Assembly: GCF_015350995.1 (NCBI RefSeq)
Contig: NZ_JADKRW010000002.1
Coordinates: 434,001 to 498,000 of the forward strand
Source of the DNA: Curtobacterium sp. VKM Ac-1393
GTDB taxonomy: Bacteria > Actinomycetota > Actinomycetes > Actinomycetales > Microbacteriaceae
Length of the DNA: 64,000 nucleotides
Reading direction: 5' to 3'
How positions within the stretch are numbered: position 1 is the stretch's first letter; each line of letters opens with the position of its first letter. Below the pieces are notes generated by a model. That model saw only the letters and a program-made list of their open reading frames with translations, ran no database searches and was not told where the DNA came from. This document shows positions 8,908-40,978 of this stretch, one piece after another. The position numbers were made by a program, and so were the translations under genes.

Positions 8908-9831
8908 ATGCCCTCCGTCTCCGATGCCTTCCGCTCCCGCCTCAACGACACGTTCACCGGTGGGGCGACGAGCAAGCCGGAGTGGATCGACGAACTCGAG
9001 CAGGGGACCGATGCCGGCTTCTTCGGCCCCGGTTCCGCGACGTGGGCGGTGCACGGCGGCAAGCAGACGATCGTCGCCGGTGTCCGCGCGCTGCTCGTCC
9101 AGGCCCTGCACCCCGGTGCCCTCGCCGGCGTCGCCGACCACTCCCGTTACCGCGAGGACCCGTTCGGACGGCTCGCCGGCACCATCCGGTGGATCTACAC
9201 GGTCTCGCACGGCGACACCGCGACCGCTCGAGGTGCGAGTGAGTGGGTGCTGCGCCTGCACGAGCGGGTGCGCGGCCAGTACGTCGACGGCCACGGCATC
9301 GCGCGCGACTACGCGGCGAACGACCCCGACCTGGCCCGCTGGGTGCACCTCGCCTTCACCGACGCGTTCCTCCGGGCCGCGCAGCGCTGGGGCGGCCCGA
9401 TCCCCGGCGGTGCCGACGCCTACGTCCGGGAGTGGGCGACCGCCGGCCGGCTCATGCGCGTCGAGGACGCCCCGGAGTCCGAGGCGGAACTCCGCGCCCA
9501 GATGGACGGCTACCTGGACCGCGGCGAACTCGCGGTCACGGCCCGCACCCGCGACGTCGTCAAGTTCATCAAGAACCCGCCGCTCGCGCTGATGCTGCGG
9601 CCCGGGTACCAGGCACTGTTCCAGGGCGCGGTGTCGACACTCGATCCCCGCCACCGGTCGATGCTCGGCCTGCGGGCGCCGGCGATCGGCCCCGTCGAGC
9701 TGCCCGTCGGCCGGGCGACCGGTCTCGTGCTCGACGGCATCGGCGGTGTGCTCGGCAACCAGACGGGGACTGAGCGCGCAGCGCTCGTCCGCATCGCACG
9801 CCTCGAGCGCGAGCGCGGCGCCGTCGCCTGA
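8908..9831 (+). CDS. MpaB-like (DUF2236) oxygenase family protein
   Basis: 307 residues. It belongs to the latex-clearing-protein/MpaB-like group: GPGSATWAVHGGKQTIVAGV at the start, ALHPGALAGVADHSRY, and the basic and His-containing helices (LHERVRGQYVDGHGI) associated with haem binding in this family. Members are proposed haem-dependent oxygenases, but most are untested. The ATG at 8908 gives the family's normal N-terminus. It is divergent from fadD across about 100 bases. The role is unknown. Confidence 0.8.
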   Translation: MPSVSDAFRSRLNDTFTGGATSKPEWIDELEQGTDAGFFGPGSATWAVHGGKQTIVAGVRALLVQALHPGALAGVADHSRYREDPFGRLAGTIRWIYTVSHGDTATARGASEWVLRLHERVRGQYVDGHGIARDYAANDPDLARWVHLAFTDAFLRAAQRWGGPIPGGADAYVREWATAGRLMRVEDAPESEAELRAQMDGYLDRGELAVTARTRDVVKFIKNPPLALMLRPGYQALFQGAVSTLDPRHRSMLGLRAPAIGPVELPVGRATGLVLDGIGGVLGNQTGTERAALVRIARLERERGAVA

Positions 9832-9873
9832 CCGACCCGGCCCGTCAGGGACGGAAGACGCCGTCGTCACGGC

Positions 9874-9901
9874 GAGACGCCGCCGAATCCGGCGGCGTCT
9901 C
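9874..9901 (+). terminator. Strong hairpin after the mpaB-like gene
   Basis: 12-bp perfect stem (GAGACGCCGCCG / CGGCGGCGTCTC) with a four-base AATC loop, 43 bases after the stop codon. There is no T-tract, as is common in high-GC actinobacteria. Confidence 0.7.
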
Positions 9902-9920
9902 GACGCCGGAGCGGCGTCGC

Positions 9921-10034
9921 GCGGACACGGCGGCGTCGTGCGGACACGGCGGCGTGTTGCGGACACGACGGCGTCGTGCGGACACGACGGCGTGTTGCGG
10001 ACACGACGGCGTGTTGCTGACACGACGGCGTGTC
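9921..10034. repeat. Six-unit 19-bp tandem repeat
   Basis: Six directly abutting 19-bp units start at 9921, 9940, 9959, 9978, 9997 and 10016, with consensus GCGGACACGACGGCGTGTT. Variation is mostly GCGT-CGT versus GCGT-GTT at the end and one A/G in the middle. No gene covers it; it lies between two convergent genes. Confidence 0.9.
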
Positions 10035-10058
10035 ACCTGCAGGAGACGCATCTGAGCG

Positions 10059-10102
10059 CGGACGGGAGGCGCGGGGCGGGGTCGACCCGCGCCTCCCGTC
10101 CG
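10059..10102 (-). terminator. CGGACGGGAGGC-family hairpin downstream of aldo/keto reductase
   Basis: 17-bp perfect arms (10059-10075 and 10086-10102) around a ten-base loop, 13 bases beyond the stop of the minus-strand reductase gene. The arm begins CGGACGGGAGGCGCGGG; the same arm start recurs at 15469, 30681 and 44719. Confidence 0.75.
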
Positions 10103-10114
10103 CTCGTGGGAGCG

Positions 10115-11146
10115 TCAGAAACCGGACGGCACCCGCGGCGTGTACGCGGACTCGAGTCGCGTCACCTCGTCGTCGGTCAGCGTGATCGCGGCGGCCGCGA
10201 CCGCGTCGTCGATGTGGTGCTCCTTCGTCGCACCGACGATCGGCGCGCTCACCGCGGGCTTGCCCGCCACCCACGCCAGGGCGATCTGCGCCATGCTCAC
10301 GCCGCGGTCGCTCGCGACGGACTCGACGGCTCCCACGATCGCGCGGTTCGCGTCCTCGTCCTGGCGGTACAGCGTCTTGCCGAACTCGTCGGTGCTCGCG
10401 CGCGAACCGGAGCCGTCGGCGTCCCACGGCCGCGTGACCTTGCCGCGGGCGAGGGGGCTCCACGGGATCACGCCGACGCCCGTCGCGTGCGCGAAGGGGT
10501 GCATCTCGCGCTCTTCCTCGCGTTCGAGCAGGTTGTACTGGTCCTGCATGCTGACGAAGCGGGTCCAACCGTGCAGATCGGCGACGTGCTGCATCTGCGC
10601 GAACTGCCACGTCCACATGCTGCTCGCACCGAGGTAGCGGGCCTTGCCGGCCTTGACGACGTCGTGCAGGGCCTCCATCGTCTCCTCGATCGGGGTCACC
10701 GGGTCGAAGCGGTGGATCTGGTACAGGTCGACGTAGTCGGTGCCGAGGCGGGTCAACGACGCGTCGATCTCGTGCATGATCGCGACGCGGGAGAGCCCGG
10801 CGCCGTTCCGCCCCGGGCGCATGCGGTTGAAGACCTTCGTGAGGACCTGGACGTCCTCGCGCGGGGCGAGCTCCTTGAGGAGCGTGCCGGTGATCTCCTC
10901 GCTGGAGCCGTCGGAGTACACGTTCGCCGTGTCGAAGGTGGTGATGCCGGCGTCGAAGGCGCGTCGTACGAAGGGCCGGGCCTCGTCGATGCCGACGCTC
11001 CACGCGTGCGAGCCGCGGTCGGGGGCGCCGTAGGACATCATGCCGAGGACGATGCTGCTGATCTCGAGGCCGGAGGCGCCGAGGCGCGTGGTGTTCGTGC
11101 TTGCCGCGTTGCCGGTTGCTGCGTCGCCCGGTGCTGGGTTGCTCAT
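10115..11146 (-). CDS. Aldo/keto reductase
   Basis: 343 residues with the AKR barrel landmarks: GITTFDTANVYSDGSSEE (catalytic Asp and Tyr), VLTKVF (Lys position), DYVDLYQIHRFDP (the conserved His region) and APIVGATKEHHIDD for the NADPH phosphate. It reduces aldehydes or ketones with NADPH; the substrate is not predictable. The ATG overlaps the stop of the upstream DinB-like gene (ATGA), so the two form an operon. GAAGGTGAG lies just upstream of the start. Confidence 0.92.
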   Translation of the reverse strand: MSNPAPGDAATGNAASTNTTRLGASGLEISSIVLGMMSYGAPDRGSHAWSVGIDEARPFVRRAFDAGITTFDTANVYSDGSSEEITGTLLKELAPREDVQVLTKVFNRMRPGRNGAGLSRVAIMHEIDASLTRLGTDYVDLYQIHRFDPVTPIEETMEALHDVVKAGKARYLGASSMWTWQFAQMQHVADLHGWTRFVSMQDQYNLLEREEEREMHPFAHATGVGVIPWSPLARGKVTRPWDADGSGSRASTDEFGKTLYRQDEDANRAIVGAVESVASDRGVSMAQIALAWVAGKPAVSAPIVGATKEHHIDDAVAAAAITLTDDEVTRLESAYTPRVPSGF

Positions 11147-11709
11147 GCGCTCACCTTCGCATCGCGGCCTGTGACGGCGAGCAGGCGCACCTGCAGCGGG
11201 GCGTCGTCCGTGACGTCGACCGGGGCGGCGTAGAGGCCGGTGGCGGCGAGGTCCTCGATCTGCGGCTCGAAGTACTCCCACACCGCCTGCACGAGCTCGT
11301 CCGGCAGGGTCTCGTCGGTACCCGTCGCCCGCGCCAGGTCCCACGTGTGGATGGTGATGTCGCTGGTCTGCTCGGTCAGGTACTGGCCGGCCGGCACCAC
11401 GTCGGTGCTCAGGTGCACGGGGGTGTCCTTCGGGGCGCTCCGCCAGGCGTCGGTCGCGGCGGAGGCGAAGCGCTGCCACTCGGCCACCAGGTCATCGCCG
11501 ATCGACTCGAGGTCGGCCTCGGCCTGGGCGTAGTCGCACCCCGTGAGGAGCTTCGGGATCCAACGCTGTTCGTCGACGACGTGGGCGACGAGGTCGCGGG
11601 TGGTCCACTCGGAGTCGGGGGTGGCGGCGTCCCAGTCCGTCACGGCGGCGACGCGGCGGCCGAACTCAGCTGCCGCGAGGGCCTGCATCGCGATCCAGTC
11701 GGTGGCCAT
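11143..11709 (-). CDS. TIGR03086/DinB-like metal-binding protein (mycothiol-dependent maleylpyruvate isomerase fold)
   Basis: 188 residues, normal for this actinobacterial family. It has the hallmark W-T-x-R-D-L-V-A-H-V-V-D-E element near residue 35 (metal-binding His) and a C-terminal His pair in DITIHTWDLARATG. Such proteins share the mycothiol-dependent isomerase or DinB four-helix fold and are thought to transfer or use mycothiol; the substrate is unknown. Its start ATG has GGGAG at good spacing. It is first in a two-gene operon with the aldo/keto reductase. The leader contains an odd hexamer-periodic tract. Confidence 0.8.
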   Translation of the reverse strand: MATDWIAMQALAAAEFGRRVAAVTDWDAATPDSEWTTRDLVAHVVDEQRWIPKLLTGCDYAQAEADLESIGDDLVAEWQRFASAATDAWRSAPKDTPVHLSTDVVPAGQYLTEQTSDITIHTWDLARATGTDETLPDELVQAVWEYFEPQIEDLAATGLYAAPVDVTDDAPLQVRLLAVTGRDAKVSA

Positions 11710-11721
11710 GGTGGTGCTCCC

Positions 11722-11769
11722 GTTCGTGTCGGTGTTCGTGCTGGTGCTCGTGCTGGTGTTCTTGTTCGT
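11722..11769. repeat. Degenerate hexanucleotide tract in an untranslated leader
   Basis: Eight GYNNGT-like hexamers in a row (such as GTTCGT, GCTGGT, GCTCGT) begin 13 bases upstream of the DinB-like gene's ATG. The tract would lie in its 5' leader or promoter. Confidence 0.7.
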
Positions 11770-11922
11770 GTGCGGCGGTACAACTCGCTGCTCGTGGTGC
11801 GGATTCCCGAGCGCGTGGAGAGCCTGCACCCGCTGCCCAACGCTACGCCGCCGAGCACCCCAGGGGCCTGCGGTCGCGCTGCCGCGGTTCCGGCGTTCTG
11901 GCAGGCTGCCGCGGTTGGCGCC

Positions 11923-11979
11923 GAGCGGGCGAAATGCCGGGGTCCCGCGCTCGCCCACCCTGCGTTTCCACCCGCTCAC
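11923..11979. repeat. GAGCGGGCGAAATGCC palindrome, copy A (degraded right arm)
   Basis: The left arm is intact (GAGCGGGCGAAATGCCGGGG). The right arm has decayed to GCGTTTCCACCCGCTC. This suggests an old copy. Confidence 0.7.
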
Positions 11980-12074
11980 GCCCGCTCACGCCGCGGGAGC
12001 GGGGCGCTCTTGCGCCTGGTGGAGCGACGAGTCGGCGGCTCCGGATCGGCCTGTCGATGTGCGTCTGCCGGGCC

Positions 12075-12129
12075 GAGCGGGCGAAATGCCTGGGGCGAGC
12101 GTCGGCGGGGGCGGGTGTTTCGCCCGCTC
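12075..12129. repeat. GAGCGGGCGAAATGCC palindrome, copy B
   Basis: 55 bp. The right arm ends TGTTTCGCCCGCTC, one substitution and one gap away from a perfect complement. It lies 96 bases after copy A's end. Confidence 0.85.
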
Positions 12130-12205
12130 GCCGCACATTGTCGGGCAGTGTGCTCGGGCCGCAGGGCCGCAGGGCCGCGGGGCCGGACGGTGGCTGGGAC
12201 GACGA

Positions 12206-12966: not shown

Positions 12967-13899
12967 TCACCGAAGTGTCGCGAAGCGGTGGTCGTGTCGC
13001 GCGTTGTACCCGACTTCGAGGAGTCGACGGATCCGCTGCACGAAGCGATCGAGTCCGCGCCCGAGATCGTCTGCCGTGGCTCGGACCAGCCACCAGTCCT
13101 CGTGCTTCAGGTGCTCGCCACGAGTCAGGTCCTTCCTGAACGTTGCCGGATCCGTGCGGTGGAGATCGCTCTCGTACTCGATCGCCACCCGGGCCTCGGG
13201 GTACGCGAGGTCCACACAGGCGATCCACCGGTCGTCCACGATCACGTCGTGGTTCAGGGCCGGCTGCGGAAGCCCGCTGCGCACGAGTGCCAGACGGGTC
13301 CGGGTCTCGCCGGGCGAGCGTGATCCCTGCCGGATCTCCTCGAGCGCGAGACGGAGCTTCACGACCCCTCGTTTTCCTCGCCGCCGCCCCACCGCTCGGG
13401 CGAGTTCGTCGAGCGTGGCCCACCCGAGCCAGCCGACGAGGGCGTCACCGGCGATGATCAGTTCCTCCAGCGTCAACATCGTGCTCAGCGCGACGAACGT
13501 GTCCGCGGGGGTGCTCAACCGCACTCCTCGACTCTGCGTCGTGCGGATCGTGCCCTTTCGGGCGCGATGGCCGACGGCTCCTCGAACCCGGAGTGCTTGG
13601 TCGACCCCGACCGTCGTGACGTGGAGCCGTGGCGTGCCCTCGAACCGCCGGGGGAGTGGGATCCCGAGGATCGCGGCGGCCGTGACGTGTGTGAACACCT
13701 GATCCGTCCGCAGCCGGGGAGCGAGTGCTCGGGCACGTTCCTCGACGGATCGTGGCGGAGTCGCGGACCGGATCCCGTGGAACGGGCGAACGAGGTCTCG
13801 TGCGTCGAGCCGGCCGCGCGACACCCCTCGATGCAGGGCGTCCCGGACGCGGAACGAGGCGTCCCGCAGGATCAAGGGGAGTCGGCGTCTGGCGGTCAT
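12967..13899 (-). CDS. AbiEi-like/DUF559 endonuclease-fold protein
   Basis: 310 residues. The N-terminal half resembles AbiEi-type antitoxin proteins (FTHVTAAAILGIPLPRRF, then HVTTVG and RGVRLSTPADTFVAL). The C-terminal ~110 residues carry the Vsr/DUF559 nuclease fold, with DLAYPEARVAIEYESDLHR supplying the acidic and His residues and WWLVRATADDL after them. No AbiEii toxin or restriction gene is adjacent. Such solitary proteins are common in Microbacteriaceae; nuclease activity is plausible but unproven. The ATG at 13899 gives MTARRRLPLILRDASF; the frame upstream runs through a palindromic repeat and is not coding. Confidence 0.75.
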   Translation of the reverse strand: MTARRRLPLILRDASFRVRDALHRGVSRGRLDARDLVRPFHGIRSATPPRSVEERARALAPRLRTDQVFTHVTAAAILGIPLPRRFEGTPRLHVTTVGVDQALRVRGAVGHRARKGTIRTTQSRGVRLSTPADTFVALSTMLTLEELIIAGDALVGWLGWATLDELARAVGRRRGKRGVVKLRLALEEIRQGSRSPGETRTRLALVRSGLPQPALNHDVIVDDRWIACVDLAYPEARVAIEYESDLHRTDPATFRKDLTRGEHLKHEDWWLVRATADDLGRGLDRFVQRIRRLLEVGYNARHDHRFATLR

Positions 13900-14001
13900 G
13901 TCCACATCGTGGAGCCGGGCGGGCGCGACGGTGGTGAGTCGTGCCTCCCGTGTGGACGGACCGCGGTGCTGGCGCCCCTGTGGAGGAATCACGCTGCAGC
14001 C

Positions 14002-14057
14002 GAGCGGGCGAAACACCGGGGGACGTGCACGTGCCGACCGCGGCATTTCGCCCGCTC
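14002..14057. repeat. GAGCGGGCGAAATGCC palindrome, copy C
   Basis: 56 bp. The left arm carries GAAACACC in place of GAAATGCC; the right arm GCGGCATTTCGCCCGCTC is intact. Confidence 0.85.
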
Positions 14058-14176
14058 ACGGGGGGGCACCCGAGTGGGCCGCCGCGAATGGCTGAGCGGT
14101 CGGGACCGCGGCGGCAGCGTCAGCACGTCGGGCTTGGGAGGCGCTGCCGCGGCCACGACGTCGGCGATGACGACGC

Positions 14177-14232
14177 GAGCGGGCCTATTGGCCGGGTGCT
14201 GCGGCCGGAGTACTCGGGCATTTCGCCCGCTC
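14177..14232. repeat. GAGCGGGCGAAATGCC palindrome, copy D (left arm mutated)
   Basis: 56 bp. The left arm reads GAGCGGGCCTATTGGCC; the right arm GGGCATTTCGCCCGCTC is intact. The length is conserved although the arm pairing is weakened. Confidence 0.75.
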
Positions 14233-14265
14233 GCGGAGACGACCGAGCGCACCACGCCCGTCGCA

Positions 14266-14385
14266 CGCCCGCCCGCCGCCCGCCCGTCGCACGCCCGCCC
14301 GCCGCCCGCCGCCCGCCGCGCCGCCCCGCCGTCGCACGCCCGCCGCTCGCCCGCCGCCCGCCCGCCCGGCCCGGCCCCGCGCCAG
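14266..14385. repeat. C-rich low-complexity tract
   Basis: About 120 bases of near-uninterrupted C and G on the plus strand, made of overlapping CCCGCCGCCCG and GTCGCACGCCCGCC units. It lies about 60 bases upstream of an aldo/keto reductase gene. Confidence 0.75.
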
Positions 14386-14435
14386 GCCGGGGTGGCAGGC
14401 ACTGGCGGGGCCCCTCGGTTGTCGGGGGCCTCCAG

Positions 14436-14441
14436 TAGCGT
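14436..14441 (+). promoter_or_regulatory. Candidate -10 (TAGCGT) of the second aldo/keto reductase
   Basis: TAGCGT, seven bases, ATG at 14449. There is no Shine-Dalgarno in between, consistent with a leaderless message. Confidence 0.55.
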
Positions 14442-14448
14442 CGGGACC

Positions 14449-15453
14449 ATGGAATTCAGGTACCTGGGAAACTCCGGACTCAAGATCTCCGAGATCACGT
14501 ACGGCAACTGGCTGACGCACGGCTCGCAGGTCGAGAACGACGTCGCCACCCAGTGCGTGCGGGCAGCGCTCGACGCCGGGATCACCACGTTCGACACCGC
14601 CGACGCGTACGCCAACACGGCGGCCGAGAAGGTCCTCGGCGATGCCCTCAAGGGCGAGCGGCGCGCTGGTCTCGAGGTCTTCACGAAGGTCTACTGGCCC
14701 ACCGGCCCGAAGGGGCACAACGACACCGGCCTCAGCCGCAAGCACATCATGGAGTCGATCGACGGCTCGCTCGAGCGGCTCCAGACCGACTACGTCGACC
14801 TCTACCAGGCCCACCGCTACGACCACGAGACCCCGCTCGAAGAGACCATGCAGGCCTTCGCCGACGTGGTCCGCCAGGGCAAGGCCCTCTACATCGGCGT
14901 CAGCGAGTGGAACGCCGAGCAGATCCGCGCCGGCGCCGCGCTCGCGAAGGAGCTCGGCTTCCAGCTCATCTCGAACCAGCCGCAGTACTCGATGCTGTGG
15001 CGGGTCATCGAGGGCGAGGTCGTCCCCGCCTCGAAGCAGCTCGGCCTGTCGCAGATCGTCTGGTCGCCGATCGCGCAGGGCGTGTTGACGGGCAAGTACA
15101 AGCCCGGTCAGCCGCTGCCCGAGGGGTCCCGCGCCACGGACGAGAAGGGCGGGGCGGACATGATCAAGCGGTTCATGCGCGACGAGGTCCTCGAAGCCGT
15201 GCAGCGCCTGCAGCCCGTCGCCGACCAGGCCGGACTCACGCTCGCACAGCTCGCGATCGCGTGGACACTGCAGAACGAGAACGTGGCCAGCGCCATCGTC
15301 GGCGCCTCGCGTCCCCAGCAGGTCACGGACAACGTCAAGGCCGCGGGCGTCACGCTCGACGCCGACGCGCTCGCCGCCATCGACGCGGCGCTGGGTGACC
15401 TCCCGGAGCGCGACGCGTCCAAGACCGTGTCCCCGGCGCAGCGTCCCGCCTGA
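14449..15453 (+). CDS. Aldo/keto reductase (Kv-beta/YajO-like)
   Basis: 334 residues. MEFRYLGNSGLKISEITYGNW opens the AKR domain; GITTFDTADAYANTAAEKVLG has catalytic Asp and Tyr, VFTKVYWP the Lys, and YVDLYQAHRYDHETPLEETM the His. The C-terminal SAIVGASRPQQVTDN binds cofactor phosphate. The closest group is the potassium-channel beta-subunit-like AKRs. It differs from the other AKR in this window and is followed by a strong terminator, so it is monocistronic. Confidence 0.93.
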   Translation: MEFRYLGNSGLKISEITYGNWLTHGSQVENDVATQCVRAALDAGITTFDTADAYANTAAEKVLGDALKGERRAGLEVFTKVYWPTGPKGHNDTGLSRKHIMESIDGSLERLQTDYVDLYQAHRYDHETPLEETMQAFADVVRQGKALYIGVSEWNAEQIRAGAALAKELGFQLISNQPQYSMLWRVIEGEVVPASKQLGLSQIVWSPIAQGVLTGKYKPGQPLPEGSRATDEKGGADMIKRFMRDEVLEAVQRLQPVADQAGLTLAQLAIAWTLQNENVASAIVGASRPQQVTDNVKAAGVTLDADALAAIDAALGDLPERDASKTVSPAQRPA

Positions 15454-15468
15454 GACGCGACCCACCAT

Positions 15469-15512
15469 CGGACGGGAGGCCCGTGGCGACGCCGCCACGG
15501 GCCTCCCGTCCG
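15469..15512 (+). terminator. 20-bp-stem terminator, CGGACGGGAGGC family
   Basis: Perfect 20-bp arms (15469-15488 and 15493-15512), loop ACGC, directly followed by TTTT. The arms are identical base for base to those of the terminator at 30681-30724. Confidence 0.9.
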
Positions 15513-19691: not shown

Positions 19692-19729
19692 TCCGCCGGG
19701 CTGCTTCCCCCACCGCCGAGCGGGCCGCC

Positions 19730-19784
19730 GAGCGGGCGAAATGCCCGGGTGCTCCGGGCACCGACCCCGGCATTTCGCCCGCTC
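19730..19784. repeat. GAGCGGGCGAAATGCC palindrome, copy E
   Basis: 55 bp with nearly perfect arms, in the only gap (173 bases) within the glycan gene series. It is preceded by a duplicated GCCGAGCGGGC. It may attenuate transcription between the GT39 and DUF4397 genes. Confidence 0.88.
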
Positions 19785-19864
19785 GCGGGGCGGCCCGCAC
19801 GACCCCGGCACGCACCACCACCGCACAGCACCGGACCAGCACCACGACCCGAAGGAGCACGACC

Positions 19865-20686: not shown

Positions 20687-20696
20687 CGCCCTGGCC

Positions 20697-20746
20697 GGGA
20701 GGCACGGATCACGTGCGCCGACACGCTCACGTGATCCGGGCCTCCC
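20697..20746 (+). terminator. Long hairpin after the DUF4397 gene
   Basis: 19-bp arms (20697-20715 and 20728-20746) with one mismatch. The arms begin GGGAGGC like the other terminators in the window and enclose CACGTG sites. Confidence 0.8.
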
Positions 20747-20848
20747 CACCGGCACGGCCGGTCCGCCGCTGGCGCGTCGGCCCGGAACCGGCGTTGTGGG
20801 CCCCCCCGTCCAGTGCCCACGTCACCATCCACGGAAAGGCAGGCCAGC

Positions 20849-30680: not shown

Positions 30681-30724
30681 CGGACGGGAGGCCCGTGGCG
30701 GACCCGCCACGGGCCTCCCGTCCG
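30681..30724 (+). terminator. 20-bp-stem terminator, CGGACGGGAGGC family
   Basis: Perfect 20-bp arms around loop GACC. The arms are identical to those at 15469-15512, 15 kb away; only the loop and the trailing bases differ. Confidence 0.88.
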
Positions 30725-30769: not shown

Positions 30770-30777
30770 GCTGGGAC

Positions 30778-30868
30778 ACACACGGGAGTCCGGGACCGCC
30801 GGGCTGAGAGGGAGCGAGTGGCGCTCCGACCGTCGAACCTGATCCGGATCATGCCGGCGCAGGGAGGA
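30778..30868 (+). ncRNA. TPP riboswitch (THI element)
   Basis: It contains the diagnostic conserved blocks in order: GGGCTGAGAG at 30801-30810, then ACCTGATCCGGATCATGCCGGCGCAGGGAG from 30837, split by a variable GAGCG-containing stem. The Shine-Dalgarno GGAGGAG for the next gene begins inside the 3' edge of the aptamer, so thiamine diphosphate binding most likely hides the ribosome site (translational control). The boundary is approximate to a few bases. Confidence 0.95.
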
Positions 30869-30878
30869 GTCCAGCACC

Positions 30879-31517
30879 ATGTCTTCTGGCACGTCATCAA
30901 CCGTCCCCACCGCCCCGCGGCGATCGCTGCGCTGGCGGGTCGTCGACATCGTCGTGGCGAGCGTGCTCGCCGTCGCGCTCGGCGTCGTCTTCCGGCTGTG
31001 GGAGTTCGGCTACGAACCCATCAGCGCCGTCATGGACCTCGTCCTCCCGGGCACGAAGGCCCTGTTCGGCGGAGTGTGGTTGCTCGCCGGACCGCTCGTC
31101 GCGATCGTCGTCCGCAAGCCCGGCGCCGCGCTCTACGGTGAGATGGTCGCCGCATCGGTCGAGGCGCTCTTCGGCACCCAGTGGGGCTGGTTGACGCTCG
31201 AGGCCGGGCTCGTCCAGGGCCTCGGTGCCGAGATCGTCCTCGCCCTGTTCCTGTACCGCGTGTACCGCCTGCCGGTCGTCGTCCTCGCAGGGGCTGCGGC
31301 CGGACTCGCGCTCGGCATCAACGACACCGTGCTCTGGTACCCCGGGCTCGACGCAGCGTTCAAGGTCGTCTACGTCGTCTGCGCGATCATCTCGGGTGCC
31401 GTGATCGCGGGTGCCGGCTCGTGGTTGGTCGTCCGCGCGCTCGCACGGACCGGTGTGCTGTCCTCGTTCGCGGCCGGACGCGAGCACAGCCGACGCCGGC
31501 CGCGCGAACTGGTGTGA
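30879..31517 (+). CDS. ECF transporter S component, YkoE family (thiamine or HMP)
   Basis: 212 residues with five to six membrane helices, from VVDIVVASVLAVALGVVFRLW. YEPISAVMDLVLPGTKALFGGVWLLAGPL, KPGAALYGEMVAASVEAL and QGLGAEIVLALF are characteristic of YkoE. The S component binds the vitamin or precursor and docks to the energy module encoded next. Control by the TPP riboswitch supports thiamine, its pyrimidine precursor, or a phosphate of either as the ligand. The stop overlaps the GTG of the energising protein. Confidence 0.93.
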   Translation: MSSGTSSTVPTAPRRSLRWRVVDIVVASVLAVALGVVFRLWEFGYEPISAVMDLVLPGTKALFGGVWLLAGPLVAIVVRKPGAALYGEMVAASVEALFGTQWGWLTLEAGLVQGLGAEIVLALFLYRVYRLPVVVLAGAAAGLALGINDTVLWYPGLDAAFKVVYVVCAIISGAVIAGAGSWLVVRALARTGVLSSFAAGREHSRRRPRELV

Positions 31518-34204
31518 CGGCGTCCGCCCCGTCGTCGACGTCCCCGGACGTCGTCGGCGTGCGCCCCGCGCGCATCACGTTCCACGGCTGGGGGTGGCGG
31601 TACCCCGAGCGTGCCGAGTGGGCCGTGCGTGGCGTCGACCTGATCGTCGAACCGGGGGAGCGGGTCGCGATCGTCGGCCCGTCCGGTGCCGGCAAGTCGA
31701 CACTGCTCCGAGCGGTCGCCGCCGTGCTGCCCGACGAACCCGACGCCACGGACGACACCGCTGCCTCCGCGCAGGGCTCGGTCCTCGTCGACGGTGCCGA
31801 CCCCCGCGCGGTCCGCGGGCGTGTCGGCCTCGTCATGCAGGACCCCGAAGCGCACACGGTGATGTCCCGGATCGGCGACGACGTGGCCTTCGGCTGCGAG
31901 AACACCGGCGTCCCGCGCGACGAGATCTGGGAACGGGTGCGGTCGGCGCTCGACGTCGTCGGGCTCGATCTGCCCCTGGGACGCTCCACCGCGATGCTGT
32001 CCGGCGGACAACGGCAACGACTGGCGCTCGCCGGTGTGCTGGCCATGCGGCCGGGCGCCCTCGTGCTCGACGAACCCTGCGCGAACCTCGACCCTGCGGG
32101 CGTGGCGCAGGTGCACGACGCCGTCCGGGCACTGCTCGACGAGACCGGGGCGACCCTGCTCGTCGTGGAGCACCGCATCGGCACCTGGCTCGACCTGGTC
32201 GACCGGCTCGTGCTGCTCGAGCGCGGCGGCGGTGTCGTCGCGGACGGCGCGCCTGCCGAGGTGCTCGCTCGCCACGGCGCCGCCCTGACCGCGGCCGGGG
32301 TCTGGGTGCCCGGTGCCGAACCCGAGCGCGGTACGGCCCGCGGTCAGCGTGCCCCTGCGCGAGCGGGCGAAATGCCGGGGTCGGGCGCGGGAGGGACCGC
32401 GGCATTCCGCCCGCTCGGCGAGGGGACGTCCGACGAGGGGGCGCTCGCGGACGGCCGGGCGGGACGAACGGGCGAAATGCCCGGGACGTCTTCGGGAGGG
32501 ACCGCGGCATTTCGCCCGCTCGGCGAGGGGGCGGGCGGCGAGGGGGCGGGCGTGAGCGACGGTGAGGGTGCGGGTGCGGGTGCGGGTGCGGGCGCGGGGG
32601 CGAGAGCGGCGGTGTTGCTCGAGGCGCGGGACCTCGGGACCGCCCGAGGCAAGCGACAGCGAGTGGGCAGCGGGATCGACCTGACACTCCGGGCCGGGCA
32701 GGTCCTGGCGGTCACCGGGCCCAACGGCGTCGGCAAGTCCACGCTCGGGCTCACACTCGCGGGGCTCCTGCCTCCGGTCGCGGGGGAGCTCGCGGCCACG
32801 ACGGACCTCGCCGCCGGCCTCGACCCCGCGCCGCACACCTGGTCGAGCCGTGCACTGTCCGCCCGCATCGGCACCGTCTTCCAAGACCCCGAGCACCAGT
32901 TCGTGGCCCGCTCCGTCCGCGAGGAGGTCGAGGCCGGACCCCGCGCGCTCGGAGCTCCCGACGCCGCGGATCGGGCCGATGTGCTGCTCCCCGAGTTCGG
33001 CCTCGCGCACCTGGCCGACGCGAACCCGTTCACGCTGTCCGGCGGCGAGCAACGTCGGCTCGCGATCGCGGCAGTGGTCGCGGCGCGCCCCCCGGTCGTC
33101 GTGCTCGACGAACCGACCTCCGGGCAGGACCGCTCCACGTGGGACGCCGTCGTCCGGCACCTCGGAGCACTCGCGGACGCCGGCACCACCGTCGTCGCCG
33201 TCACGCACGACCGCGACCTGATCCGGGCGTTGGACGCCGACGAGGTCGTGCTCACGGCGGCCGGTGCCCGGCGCGTGGAACGCGACCAGGGGCATGCGAC
33301 GGTGGCCACTCCGGAGACGGTGCCGACGGCGGCGAGCCGAGCCGCGCCTCCAGGCCGACCGACCGTGACCGACGCGACGGACGCAACCATGACCGACGCG
33401 CCCCCGAGCGACGCGACAGCGACCGCAACCGCAACCGACGCGACCCCGACCGGCCCCCGCCGCGGCATCGGCGTCGTCCAGCCGGTGGCCTCGCTCGTCG
33501 GCGTCCTCGCGCTCGGCGTGTGCCTGGTGCTGAGCCTCGACGTCGTGTCCGCTGCCGTCGCCCTCGGACTCGAACTCGCCCTGCTGCCGCTCCTGCGGCT
33601 GCCGGTGCGGACCCTGCTGCTGCGAGTGTCGCCGGTCCTCATCGCCGTGCCGCTGACGGCGGTGAGCATCGCGCTGTACGGACGACCCTCGGGACGGGAG
33701 TGGTTCGACTTCGGCTTCGCCCACGTCACCGACGGGTCGCTGACGCTCGCCCTGGCGACGGCGCTCCGCGTGCTCGCGGTGGGGTTGCCGGCGGTCGCGC
33801 TCTTCATCCGCGTCGACCCGACGGACCTGGCCGACGGCCTCGCGCAGGTGCTGCGGTTGCCGGCGCGGTTCGTGCTCGGTGCGCTCGCCGCCATCCGGAT
33901 GATGACGCTGCTGGTGGACGACTGGCGGCAGCTCGCGATGGCCAGACGTGCGCGGGGACTGGCCGACACCGGACGGCTGCGACGCGGGGCCTCGATGGCG
34001 TTCGCGCTCCTGGTGCTCGCGCTGCGGCGTGCGACGACGCTGGCGGTGGCGATGGAGTCGCGCGGGTTCGGGGCTCCCGGCCGGCGCACGTGGGCGCGGG
34101 CCGCGCGGTTCGCAGGGCCCGAGGGGGCGATGGTCGCGGGGCTCGTCGGCATCGGCGTGATGTCGATCGCAGTCGCTGTGGGAGCGGGGACCTGGCGTGC
34201 CTGA
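31514..34204 (+). CDS. ECF energising module as one chain: ATPase-ATPase-EcfT fusion with in-frame palindromic inserts
   Basis: 896 residues. ATPase domain 1 (~10-250): GPSGAGKST near 55, LSGGQRQRLALAG near 162 and LVLDEPCANLD near 183. ATPase domain 2 (~365-595): GPNGVGKST near 402, LSGGEQRRLAIA near 509 and VVVLDEPTSGQD near 529. The C-terminal EcfT part (~655-896) is membrane-embedded with coupling motifs ARRARGLADT and MESRGFGAPGRRT. This equals YkoD plus YkoC, which are separate proteins in Bacillus. The inter-ATPase linker (~255-365) holds two copies of the 56-bp palindrome translated as AGEMPGSG...AAFRPLG. The second linker is Thr/Ala/Asp-rich. GTG start by overlap with ykoE. Confidence 0.92.
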   Translation: MTASAPSSTSPDVVGVRPARITFHGWGWRYPERAEWAVRGVDLIVEPGERVAIVGPSGAGKSTLLRAVAAVLPDEPDATDDTAASAQGSVLVDGADPRAVRGRVGLVMQDPEAHTVMSRIGDDVAFGCENTGVPRDEIWERVRSALDVVGLDLPLGRSTAMLSGGQRQRLALAGVLAMRPGALVLDEPCANLDPAGVAQVHDAVRALLDETGATLLVVEHRIGTWLDLVDRLVLLERGGGVVADGAPAEVLARHGAALTAAGVWVPGAEPERGTARGQRAPARAGEMPGSGAGGTAAFRPLGEGTSDEGALADGRAGRTGEMPGTSSGGTAAFRPLGEGAGGEGAGVSDGEGAGAGAGAGAGARAAVLLEARDLGTARGKRQRVGSGIDLTLRAGQVLAVTGPNGVGKSTLGLTLAGLLPPVAGELAATTDLAAGLDPAPHTWSSRALSARIGTVFQDPEHQFVARSVREEVEAGPRALGAPDAADRADVLLPEFGLAHLADANPFTLSGGEQRRLAIAAVVAARPPVVVLDEPTSGQDRSTWDAVVRHLGALADAGTTVVAVTHDRDLIRALDADEVVLTAAGARRVERDQGHATVATPETVPTAASRAAPPGRPTVTDATDATMTDAPPSDATATATATDATPTGPRRGIGVVQPVASLVGVLALGVCLVLSLDVVSAAVALGLELALLPLLRLPVRTLLLRVSPVLIAVPLTAVSIALYGRPSGREWFDFGFAHVTDGSLTLALATALRVLAVGLPAVALFIRVDPTDLADGLAQVLRLPARFVLGALAAIRMMTLLVDDWRQLAMARRARGLADTGRLRRGASMAFALLVLALRRATTLAVAMESRGFGAPGRRTWARAARFAGPEGAMVAGLVGIGVMSIAVAVGAGTWRA
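32361..32416 (+). repeat. GAGCGGGCGAAATGCC palindrome, copy F, inside a coding sequence
   Basis: 56 bp within codons ~283-301 of the ECF fusion. The right arm has one change (GGCATTCCGCCCGCTC). The inserted frame has no stop and reads AGEMPG at one arm and AAFRPL at the other. Confidence 0.93.
32466..32521 (+). repeat. GAGCGGGCGAAATGCC palindrome, copy G, inside a coding sequence
   Basis: 56 bp within codons ~318-336 of the ECF fusion, starting 105 bases (35 codons) after copy F, so both copies are read in the same frame. The left arm starts GAACGGGCG; the right arm is perfect. Confidence 0.93.
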
Positions 34205-40333: not shown

Positions 40334-40447
40334 TTCCCGGCCCGCGTGCTGCCCCGCACGCCATGGCGGCAACCGCCTGCCGGTCCGCCGCCGGTCCGCC
40401 GGGCGATCGCCGTGCCTCCAGACGAGCGCGCCCAGCCCACCCAGCGC

Positions 40448-40503
40448 GAGCGGGCGGAATGCCGCGGTCGCGTCGCCTGGCGACCCGGGTATTTCGCCCG
40501 CTC
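40448..40503. repeat. GAGCGGGCGAAATGCC palindrome, copy H
   Basis: 56 bp, left arm GAGCGGGCGGAATGCC, right arm GGGTATTTCGCCCGCTC; first unit of the array. Confidence 0.88.
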
Positions 40504-40551
40504 GGCCGGACGCCGGGCCGGGCTCGCGCTCTTGATCGCCCGCGGGAACGC

Positions 40552-40607
40552 GAGCGGGCGAAATGCCGCGGTCGCGTCGCGCGGCGACCCGGGTATCTCG
40601 CCCGCTC
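40552..40607. repeat. GAGCGGGCGAAATGCC palindrome, copy I
   Basis: 56 bp, left arm intact, right arm GGGTATCTCGCCCGCTC; the central CGTCGCGCGGCGACC has one change from its neighbours. Confidence 0.88.
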
Positions 40608-40655
40608 GGTCGGACGCCGGGCCGGGCTCGCGCTCCTGCTCGCCCGCGGGAACGC

Positions 40656-40711
40656 GAGCGGGCGGAATGCCGCGGTCGCGTCGCCTGGCGACCCGGGTAT
40701 TTCGCCCGCTC
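40656..40711. repeat. GAGCGGGCGAAATGCC palindrome, copy J
   Basis: 56 bp and identical to copy H across the element, which points to recent duplication. Confidence 0.88.
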
Positions 40712-40803
40712 GGCGAGCGGCGAGCGGCGAGCGTACGAGCGCACGAGCGAGCAGGCGAGCAGGCGGGCAACTTGCGGGGCGCGGCGCGCGGGGCGGTGGC
40801 GGC

Positions 40804-40860
40804 GACCGCCTGGAGGCCCGGTGCCGGTCCGTCGGACGGTCACCGGGCCTCCAGGCGGTC
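40804..40860 (-). terminator. Large hairpin downstream of the MFS gene
   Basis: 20-bp perfect arms (40804-40823 and 40841-40860), containing GGAGGCCCGG, around a 17-base loop that is itself partly self-complementary (CCGTCC/GGACGG). Confidence 0.75.
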
Positions 40861-40880
40861 ACCACCAGTGCGCACGACGC

Positions 40881-40935
40881 GAGCGGGCGAAATGCCCGGG
40901 CCACGCCGCGTGACAGCCGGGCATTTCGCCCGCTC
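40881..40935. repeat. GAGCGGGCGAAATGCC palindrome, copy K
   Basis: 55 bp with perfect arms of at least 20 bases (GAGCGGGCGAAATGCCCGG and complement). It lies 44 bases after the MFS stop codon and may act as its first terminator. Confidence 0.9.
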
Positions 40936-40978
40936 GCGGAGGGGTGCGCGGGGTGAGGGTGCGCGGGGCTCCGGGGGG

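Follow-up and report, generated by a model that had tools for sequence, protein, structure and literature searches.

Paired palindromic half-sites in frame in a vitamin-transporter linker of Curtobacterium: candidate DNA sites of one chromosome sector

How does a palindromic DNA element come to lie, twice and in frame, within a predicted vitamin-transporter gene, and is it kept there as DNA, as RNA, or as peptide? The question is raised by the window, i.e., the whole stretch of DNA analysed here (64,000 nucleotides of Curtobacterium sp. VKM Ac-1393). The gene concerned is a YkoD-YkoC-like fusion on the forward strand (31517-34204; 895 amino acids). From its ORF and Pfam matches (two ABC_tran and one CbiQ), it consists of ABC ATPase 1, a linker, ABC ATPase 2, and a CbiQ domain. 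Upstream of it is the ORF of a YkoE-like permease (30879-31517, forward strand; PF09819 match), and 5' of both genes lies a TPP riboswitch (30772-30883, forward strand), as would suit a transporter of thiamine precursors. In the window and in L004, L005, L008, L009, and L014, the ATPases are fused to the CbiQ (YkoC) part. In other Curtobacterium the ATPase ORF stops short of this part.

The linker contains two elements, at 32360-32417 and 32465-32522. Each is a 58-nt palindrome located between the two ABC domains and is made of inverted half-sites whose arms start 40 nt apart. The arms have 0 and 1 mismatch to GAGCGGGCGAAATGCC in the first element, and 1 and 0 in the second. Both elements are translated in the same frame without stops, as RAGEMPG...AAFRPLG and RTGEMPG...AAFRPLG, respectively, confirming what the preliminary description had read in this linker. 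The separation of 105 bp given there is that of the palindrome starts (105 nt); the gap between the elements is only 47 nt. Both are carried by a direct repeat on the forward strand (32360-32568) with a period of 105 and units of 104 nt (32360-32463 and 32465-32568) that are 80 % identical. The second element is an apparent tandem duplicate of the first, and the two copies look like the result of one tandem duplication, not of two insertions.

An orthologue search gave 79 loci, 22 of them in the Curtobacterium clade. Among these 22, the linker has one or more elements in 11 (eroded in L006 and L009) and none in 10, one of which (L007) has a possible remnant; L025 ends ahead of the linker and is counted in neither group. 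As had been anticipated for orthologues lacking the insert, the element-free ones have short linkers (e.g., GAEPARGSAR...LLEARGLGT). After removal of duplicate loci and with inclusion of the loci carrying G handles, 18 distinct linkers hold 29 readable elements (18 in 13 linkers and 11 in five others). All 29 have an arm spacing of 40 and share one common frame. For the 11 elements of the other five, the open run also includes the upstream ATPase-1 P-loop motif. The two elements of L024 are the exception: masking covers the DNA upstream of the element there, and the open run takes in just the ATPase-2 motif. Linkers carry zero to three copies, with three found in L027 and G038. Because copies share descent and arise by tandem duplication, the 29 represent few independent events. 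Across the window and 13 further loci examined for ORF overlap, the ykoD linker is the only clear coding host; further overlaps, on rough ORF calls, are seen at L088 and L117.

Outside the linker, the window has nine more paired copies, which agrees with the earlier statement that the element is otherwise intergenic. Intergenic copies are found at 12074-12130, at 19729-19785 (both arms exact), and in a four-element array between orn and an MFS gene (40447-40936; arm starts at 40448, 40552, 40656, and 40881). The remaining three lie outside known domains, at 11922-11978 (right arm eroded, 5 mismatches), 14001-14058, and 14176-14233 (left arm eroded, 4 mismatches). They overlap the mechanical ORFs 11143-11979 and 13567-15453, 5' of the Pfam domains, in parts that look like false N-terminal extensions. 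With up to 3 mismatches allowed, GCGGGCGAAATGCC has 34 matches in the window against 13.8 expected, a number reached in 0 of 100 shuffles. Another array of the element is found about 2 kb 3' of ykoDC in L003, L004, L008, L024, and L025; the window has none at the matching place 3' of its own transporter genes. The window also holds a different, dispersed family of palindromes (CGGACGGGAGGCCCG and its inverse), at 10059-10102, 15469-15512, and 30681-30724, with weaker copies at 20692-20751 and 40806-40858. This family occurs in all four sampled regions of G008 and has clear compensatory base changes.

The window and 40 fetched loci, some of which overlap one another, contain 215 paired copies (212 distinct with their flanks); the reversed-arm control gave 0. 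The consensus is a half-site, CGAGCGGGCRAAATGCCnGGGT, followed by a variable core of 13-14 nt and the inverted half, so that conserved outer and inner motifs flank the core. The architecture is rigid. All 215 copies have arm starts 39 (88 copies) or 40 (127 copies) apart, and spacings of 36-38 and 41-43 were not found in the scanned range. With 17-nt arms, no convergent pairs occur at spacings of 42-54, and only 8 of 390 arms are orphans. The element is asymmetric, and its two orientations are about equally common (flipped in 42/88 and 60/124 copies).

The family is restricted in its distribution. With up to one mismatch, one or more arms occur in 41 of 66 Curtobacterium genomes and three or more in 34, and 25 have none; since the reversed control pattern gives 10 matches over all 66 genomes, single matches carry little weight. 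With arms absent from 25 genomes and numbering three or more in only 34, the system is dispensable. The arm followed by GGGT (up to 1 mismatch) was found in 0 of 147 genomes of other Microbacteriaceae genera (84 genera sampled). A plasmid or phage origin was also considered and rejected. The linker query had no plasmid match and the query with the 40.4-kb array no phage match. In viral contigs, one half-site matched in six stretches, and paired copies occur only in L120. This record, which abuts the tRNA-His/orn locus with four elements (9080-10749), matches the tRNA-His/orn flank of Curtobacterium chromosomes and probably represents a prophage together with flanking chromosomal DNA. No paper on this Curtobacterium repeat was found in the literature searched, the coverage of which excluded most subscription journals.

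The arms are the conserved part of the element. In 40 homologous cross-genome pairs, picked by a flank difference below 0.35, the differences are 0.054 in arms, 0.253 in core, and 0.258 in flank; between species, arm divergence is thus about fivefold below that of core or flanks. Note that copies were found via their arms, a possible source of bias. When neutrally evolving arms are simulated and put through the filter used for the copies, they differ by 0.228-0.251, which rules out that the conservation is an artefact of how copies were found. The arms may have been kept alike through homogenisation by gene conversion. Within the linker, third codon positions can be compared directly. In the nine species with well-kept elements, their divergence is 0.111 for the arms, against 0.290 for the core and 0.283 for the ABC domains; for all 13 element-bearing linkers, four eroded ones included, it is 0.141 in arms and 0.329 in ABC domains. 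Five four-fold sites of the arms are invariant in all nine species, compared with 26 % of 225 such sites in the ABC domains. The arginines of the arms are coded by CGA in 18 of 18 cases, against 10 of 74 elsewhere in the ORF of the window. The low third-position divergence and the CGA use indicate that constraint acts on the DNA.

The position of the family in the chromosome is also constrained. Nine genomes combine a chromosome contig longer than 3.5 Mb with 10 or more arms (G008, G012, G016, G032, G038, G042, G045, G048, and G062). In these, the distance from dif is 526-1058 kb, always on the same side, for 171 of 172 arms; the single arm outside this sector is at 3757500 in G038. The dif pattern, a consensus, matched in 7/7 and 26/26 genomes searched, with a second match in G048 and G059. 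Genomes with few arms were left out, namely G029 (degenerate arms; 5 of 6 within 625-710 kb) and G026 (3 of 3 at 1072-1079 kb), in which dif was not located; G018 has one lone arm match. The mirror sector of G008 was scanned for a counterpart: over 377 kb, no arm with 0-2 mismatches occurs. The dispersed control family is the only one present there, and it occurs in all five sampled regions. The assembly of the window itself (G000) is the exception, with its main cluster 57-86 kb from dif. On contig C12, before the window (411.4-423.8 kb), synteny with G008 jumps from 1929 kb, on the dif side, to 970 kb, on the side of the sector, with about 10 kb unmatched between. This join is a rearrangement or a misassembly, and the near-dif cluster is probably due to it, outside the window. 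The clusters on contigs C2 and C19 of this assembly have their orthologues among the sector loci of G042. Terminus sites can be rejected: copies look near dif in the assembly of the window, but complete chromosomes place them mid-replichore.

Probable losses are recorded in the linker as well. Exact arms are present in 10 of the 21 named Curtobacterium genomes searched (L017 left out). The other 11 include L006 and L009 with an eroded linker element, L007 with perhaps a remnant, and eight with none. In L005 the linker pair is eroded despite exact arms elsewhere. In the transporter-gene tree, in which several nodes are weak, arm-bearing genomes fall in more than one group, with arm-less ones among them and at the base. 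We infer one gain of a putative trans-acting partner and several losses of it.

Neighbouring elements appear to be phased. The gaps between them cluster near 16, 27, 37, 48, and 58 nt, and 68 locus-unique gaps give R 0.41 near 10.1 nt, a value reached in 0 of 4000 jitter draws. With each gap value taken once (n=46), p is 0.016. The phase recurs (V 0.41) in 54 held-out gaps, taken from contigs or clusters that did not belong to the first set, but p is 0.14 once these are reduced to 21 unique values; a jitter test on 39 rounded centre distances from the first set gives p 0.43. A phasing of about 10 bp is thus suggestive. By the same suggestive evidence, neighbouring elements might act cooperatively.

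Several familiar kinds of element could account for such a family. RNA hairpins at gene ends, serving as terminators or mRNA stabilisers and merely carried within the ykoD mRNA, would explain the very stable predicted folds (z -5.0 to -6.2 in the four copies folded) and the many examined loci at 3' ends, several of them between convergent genes on rough ORF calls. However, such folds are expected of any palindrome, and the mRNA hairpins suggested in the preliminary description are not borne out by base-pair covariation. Across 88 and 124 copies, the paired arm positions do not covary consistently. Some vary against pairing (z down to -5.3), as the element is asymmetric and has an orientation; the exceptions that covary are pair 10-46 of class 39 (z 3.7) and pair 11-46 of class 40 (z 2.6). 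In contrast, 103 copies of the dispersed palindrome (CGGACGGGAGGC...), drawn as positive control from the same DNA, covary at many pairs with z up to 6.1. With both orientations about equally frequent, copies placed within an ORF, and confinement to one sector, an RNA role is very unlikely. Selfish palindromic repeats (MITE, REP, or Rickettsia type), with the arms as terminal inverted repeats, might instead have jumped between genes and once in frame into ykoD. The family does consist of short, multi-copy palindromes, and in-frame hosting is described for Rickettsia palindromic elements (RPEs) in PMC10969869. Of the in-frame colonisation proposed earlier by analogy with Rickettsia, the palindrome family in a transporter linker and the short linkers of element-free orthologues hold; mobility is not supported. 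The 78 clusters form nine groups of orthologous clusters, which correspond to about ten loci because the grouping joined some neighbouring ones. When cores are compared between loci of one genome, they are hardly nearer than shuffled ones (median best distance 0.43 vs 0.46; 5 % vs 1 % under 0.25), giving no sign of recent copies at new loci. PF01797 (RAYT-type Y1_Tnp), the one protein family searched genome-wide, is in 0 of 66 Curtobacterium genomes, with 5 of 14 control genomes positive. As the arms of old copies are also about fivefold less divergent than their flanks, and the family is found in none of the 147 sampled genomes of other genera and, in nine chromosomes, almost wholly in one sector, a selfish repeat is an unlikely explanation.

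Binding by a protein may leave such a pattern in more than one way. Operators of a single transcription regulator, with a regulon clustered in the sector, would have dyad symmetry, fixed spacing, and conservation, and the erosion of linker copies in two genomes that lack exact arms would also fit. The neighbours, however, are unrelated housekeeping genes (citrate synthase, a fumarase-type lyase, a phosphate transporter, orn, and glycosyl hydrolases) without a common theme. In the loci examined, they mostly have their 3' ends towards the sites, on rough ORF calls. Both points argue against a regulon, as do the copies within an ORF, making operators rather improbable. Gyrase- or topoisomerase-binding sites of a BIME-like kind would suit the tandem arrays and the bias to 3' ends and convergent genes. 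Gyrase is, as far as is known, universal, though, and a family limited to one sector and missing from 25 of 66 genomes makes this a decidedly remote candidate.

Our best explanation, which we hold with middling confidence, is that the paired inverted half-sites are bound as double-stranded DNA by a putative dimeric protein that would mark or organise the sector in a matS-like manner. The reading as half-site pairs in double-stranded DNA is supported by the rigid spacing, the arm conservation, the inconsistent covariation, the orthologous loci, the sector, and the eroded linker copies in two genomes free of exact arms. Binding by a protein, dimeric or cooperative action between neighbouring elements, and a sector-organising role would be its functional side. 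For the linker, an ancestral site in ykoD appears to have come first as DNA and second as peptide; it probably stayed because its length and frame left the transporter open, and would then have multiplied by tandem duplication. More tentatively, Curtobacterium could have a sector organiser of its own, in which a candidate protein would act on helically phased arrays of 58-bp half-site pairs at about ten mid-replichore loci, with one site inside a vitamin-transporter gene, where the same nucleotides would serve as DNA site and as codons of the peptide. To our knowledge, sector-defining repeated sites are known only around origins and termini. With a mid-replichore site family, it would become directly testable by what means other domains of the chromosome are built, and the linker copies show a DNA-level site dictating codons of a protein.

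Several known systems share features with this family. RPEs are described as palindromic repeats that are kept in frame in protein genes, at the same site in orthologues (PMC3767692, PMC10969869). They measure about 100-150 bp, with many copies across many unrelated genes. The Curtobacterium element is likewise in frame in its host gene and at the same site in orthologues. Unlike RPEs, it has a single coding host gene as far as seen, its copies appear immobile, and constraint seems to lie on the DNA arms and not on the peptide. REP and BIME sequences are short intergenic palindromes that occur in pairs and arrays and are associated with RAYT. The Curtobacterium family has the same form but differs in its lack of Y1_Tnp across the 66 genomes, its confinement to one sector, and its inconsistent covariation. 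MIRU repeats of mycobacteria are interspersed, of tandem minisatellite type, and translatable together with neighbouring genes. The Curtobacterium element, also an actinobacterial interspersed repeat that can be translated, differs from them in its palindrome architecture. MatP/matS is alike in that a short dyad site recurs some tens of times and keeps to a single sector of the chromosome. As described in PMC3330122, matS is a 13-bp site with 23 copies over 800 kb in the Ter macrodomain of E. coli. The Curtobacterium site differs in being 58 bp long with two separated half-sites and in forming arrays at about ten loci; its sector lies mid-replichore, 526-1058 kb from dif rather than around it, and it is found only in Curtobacterium.
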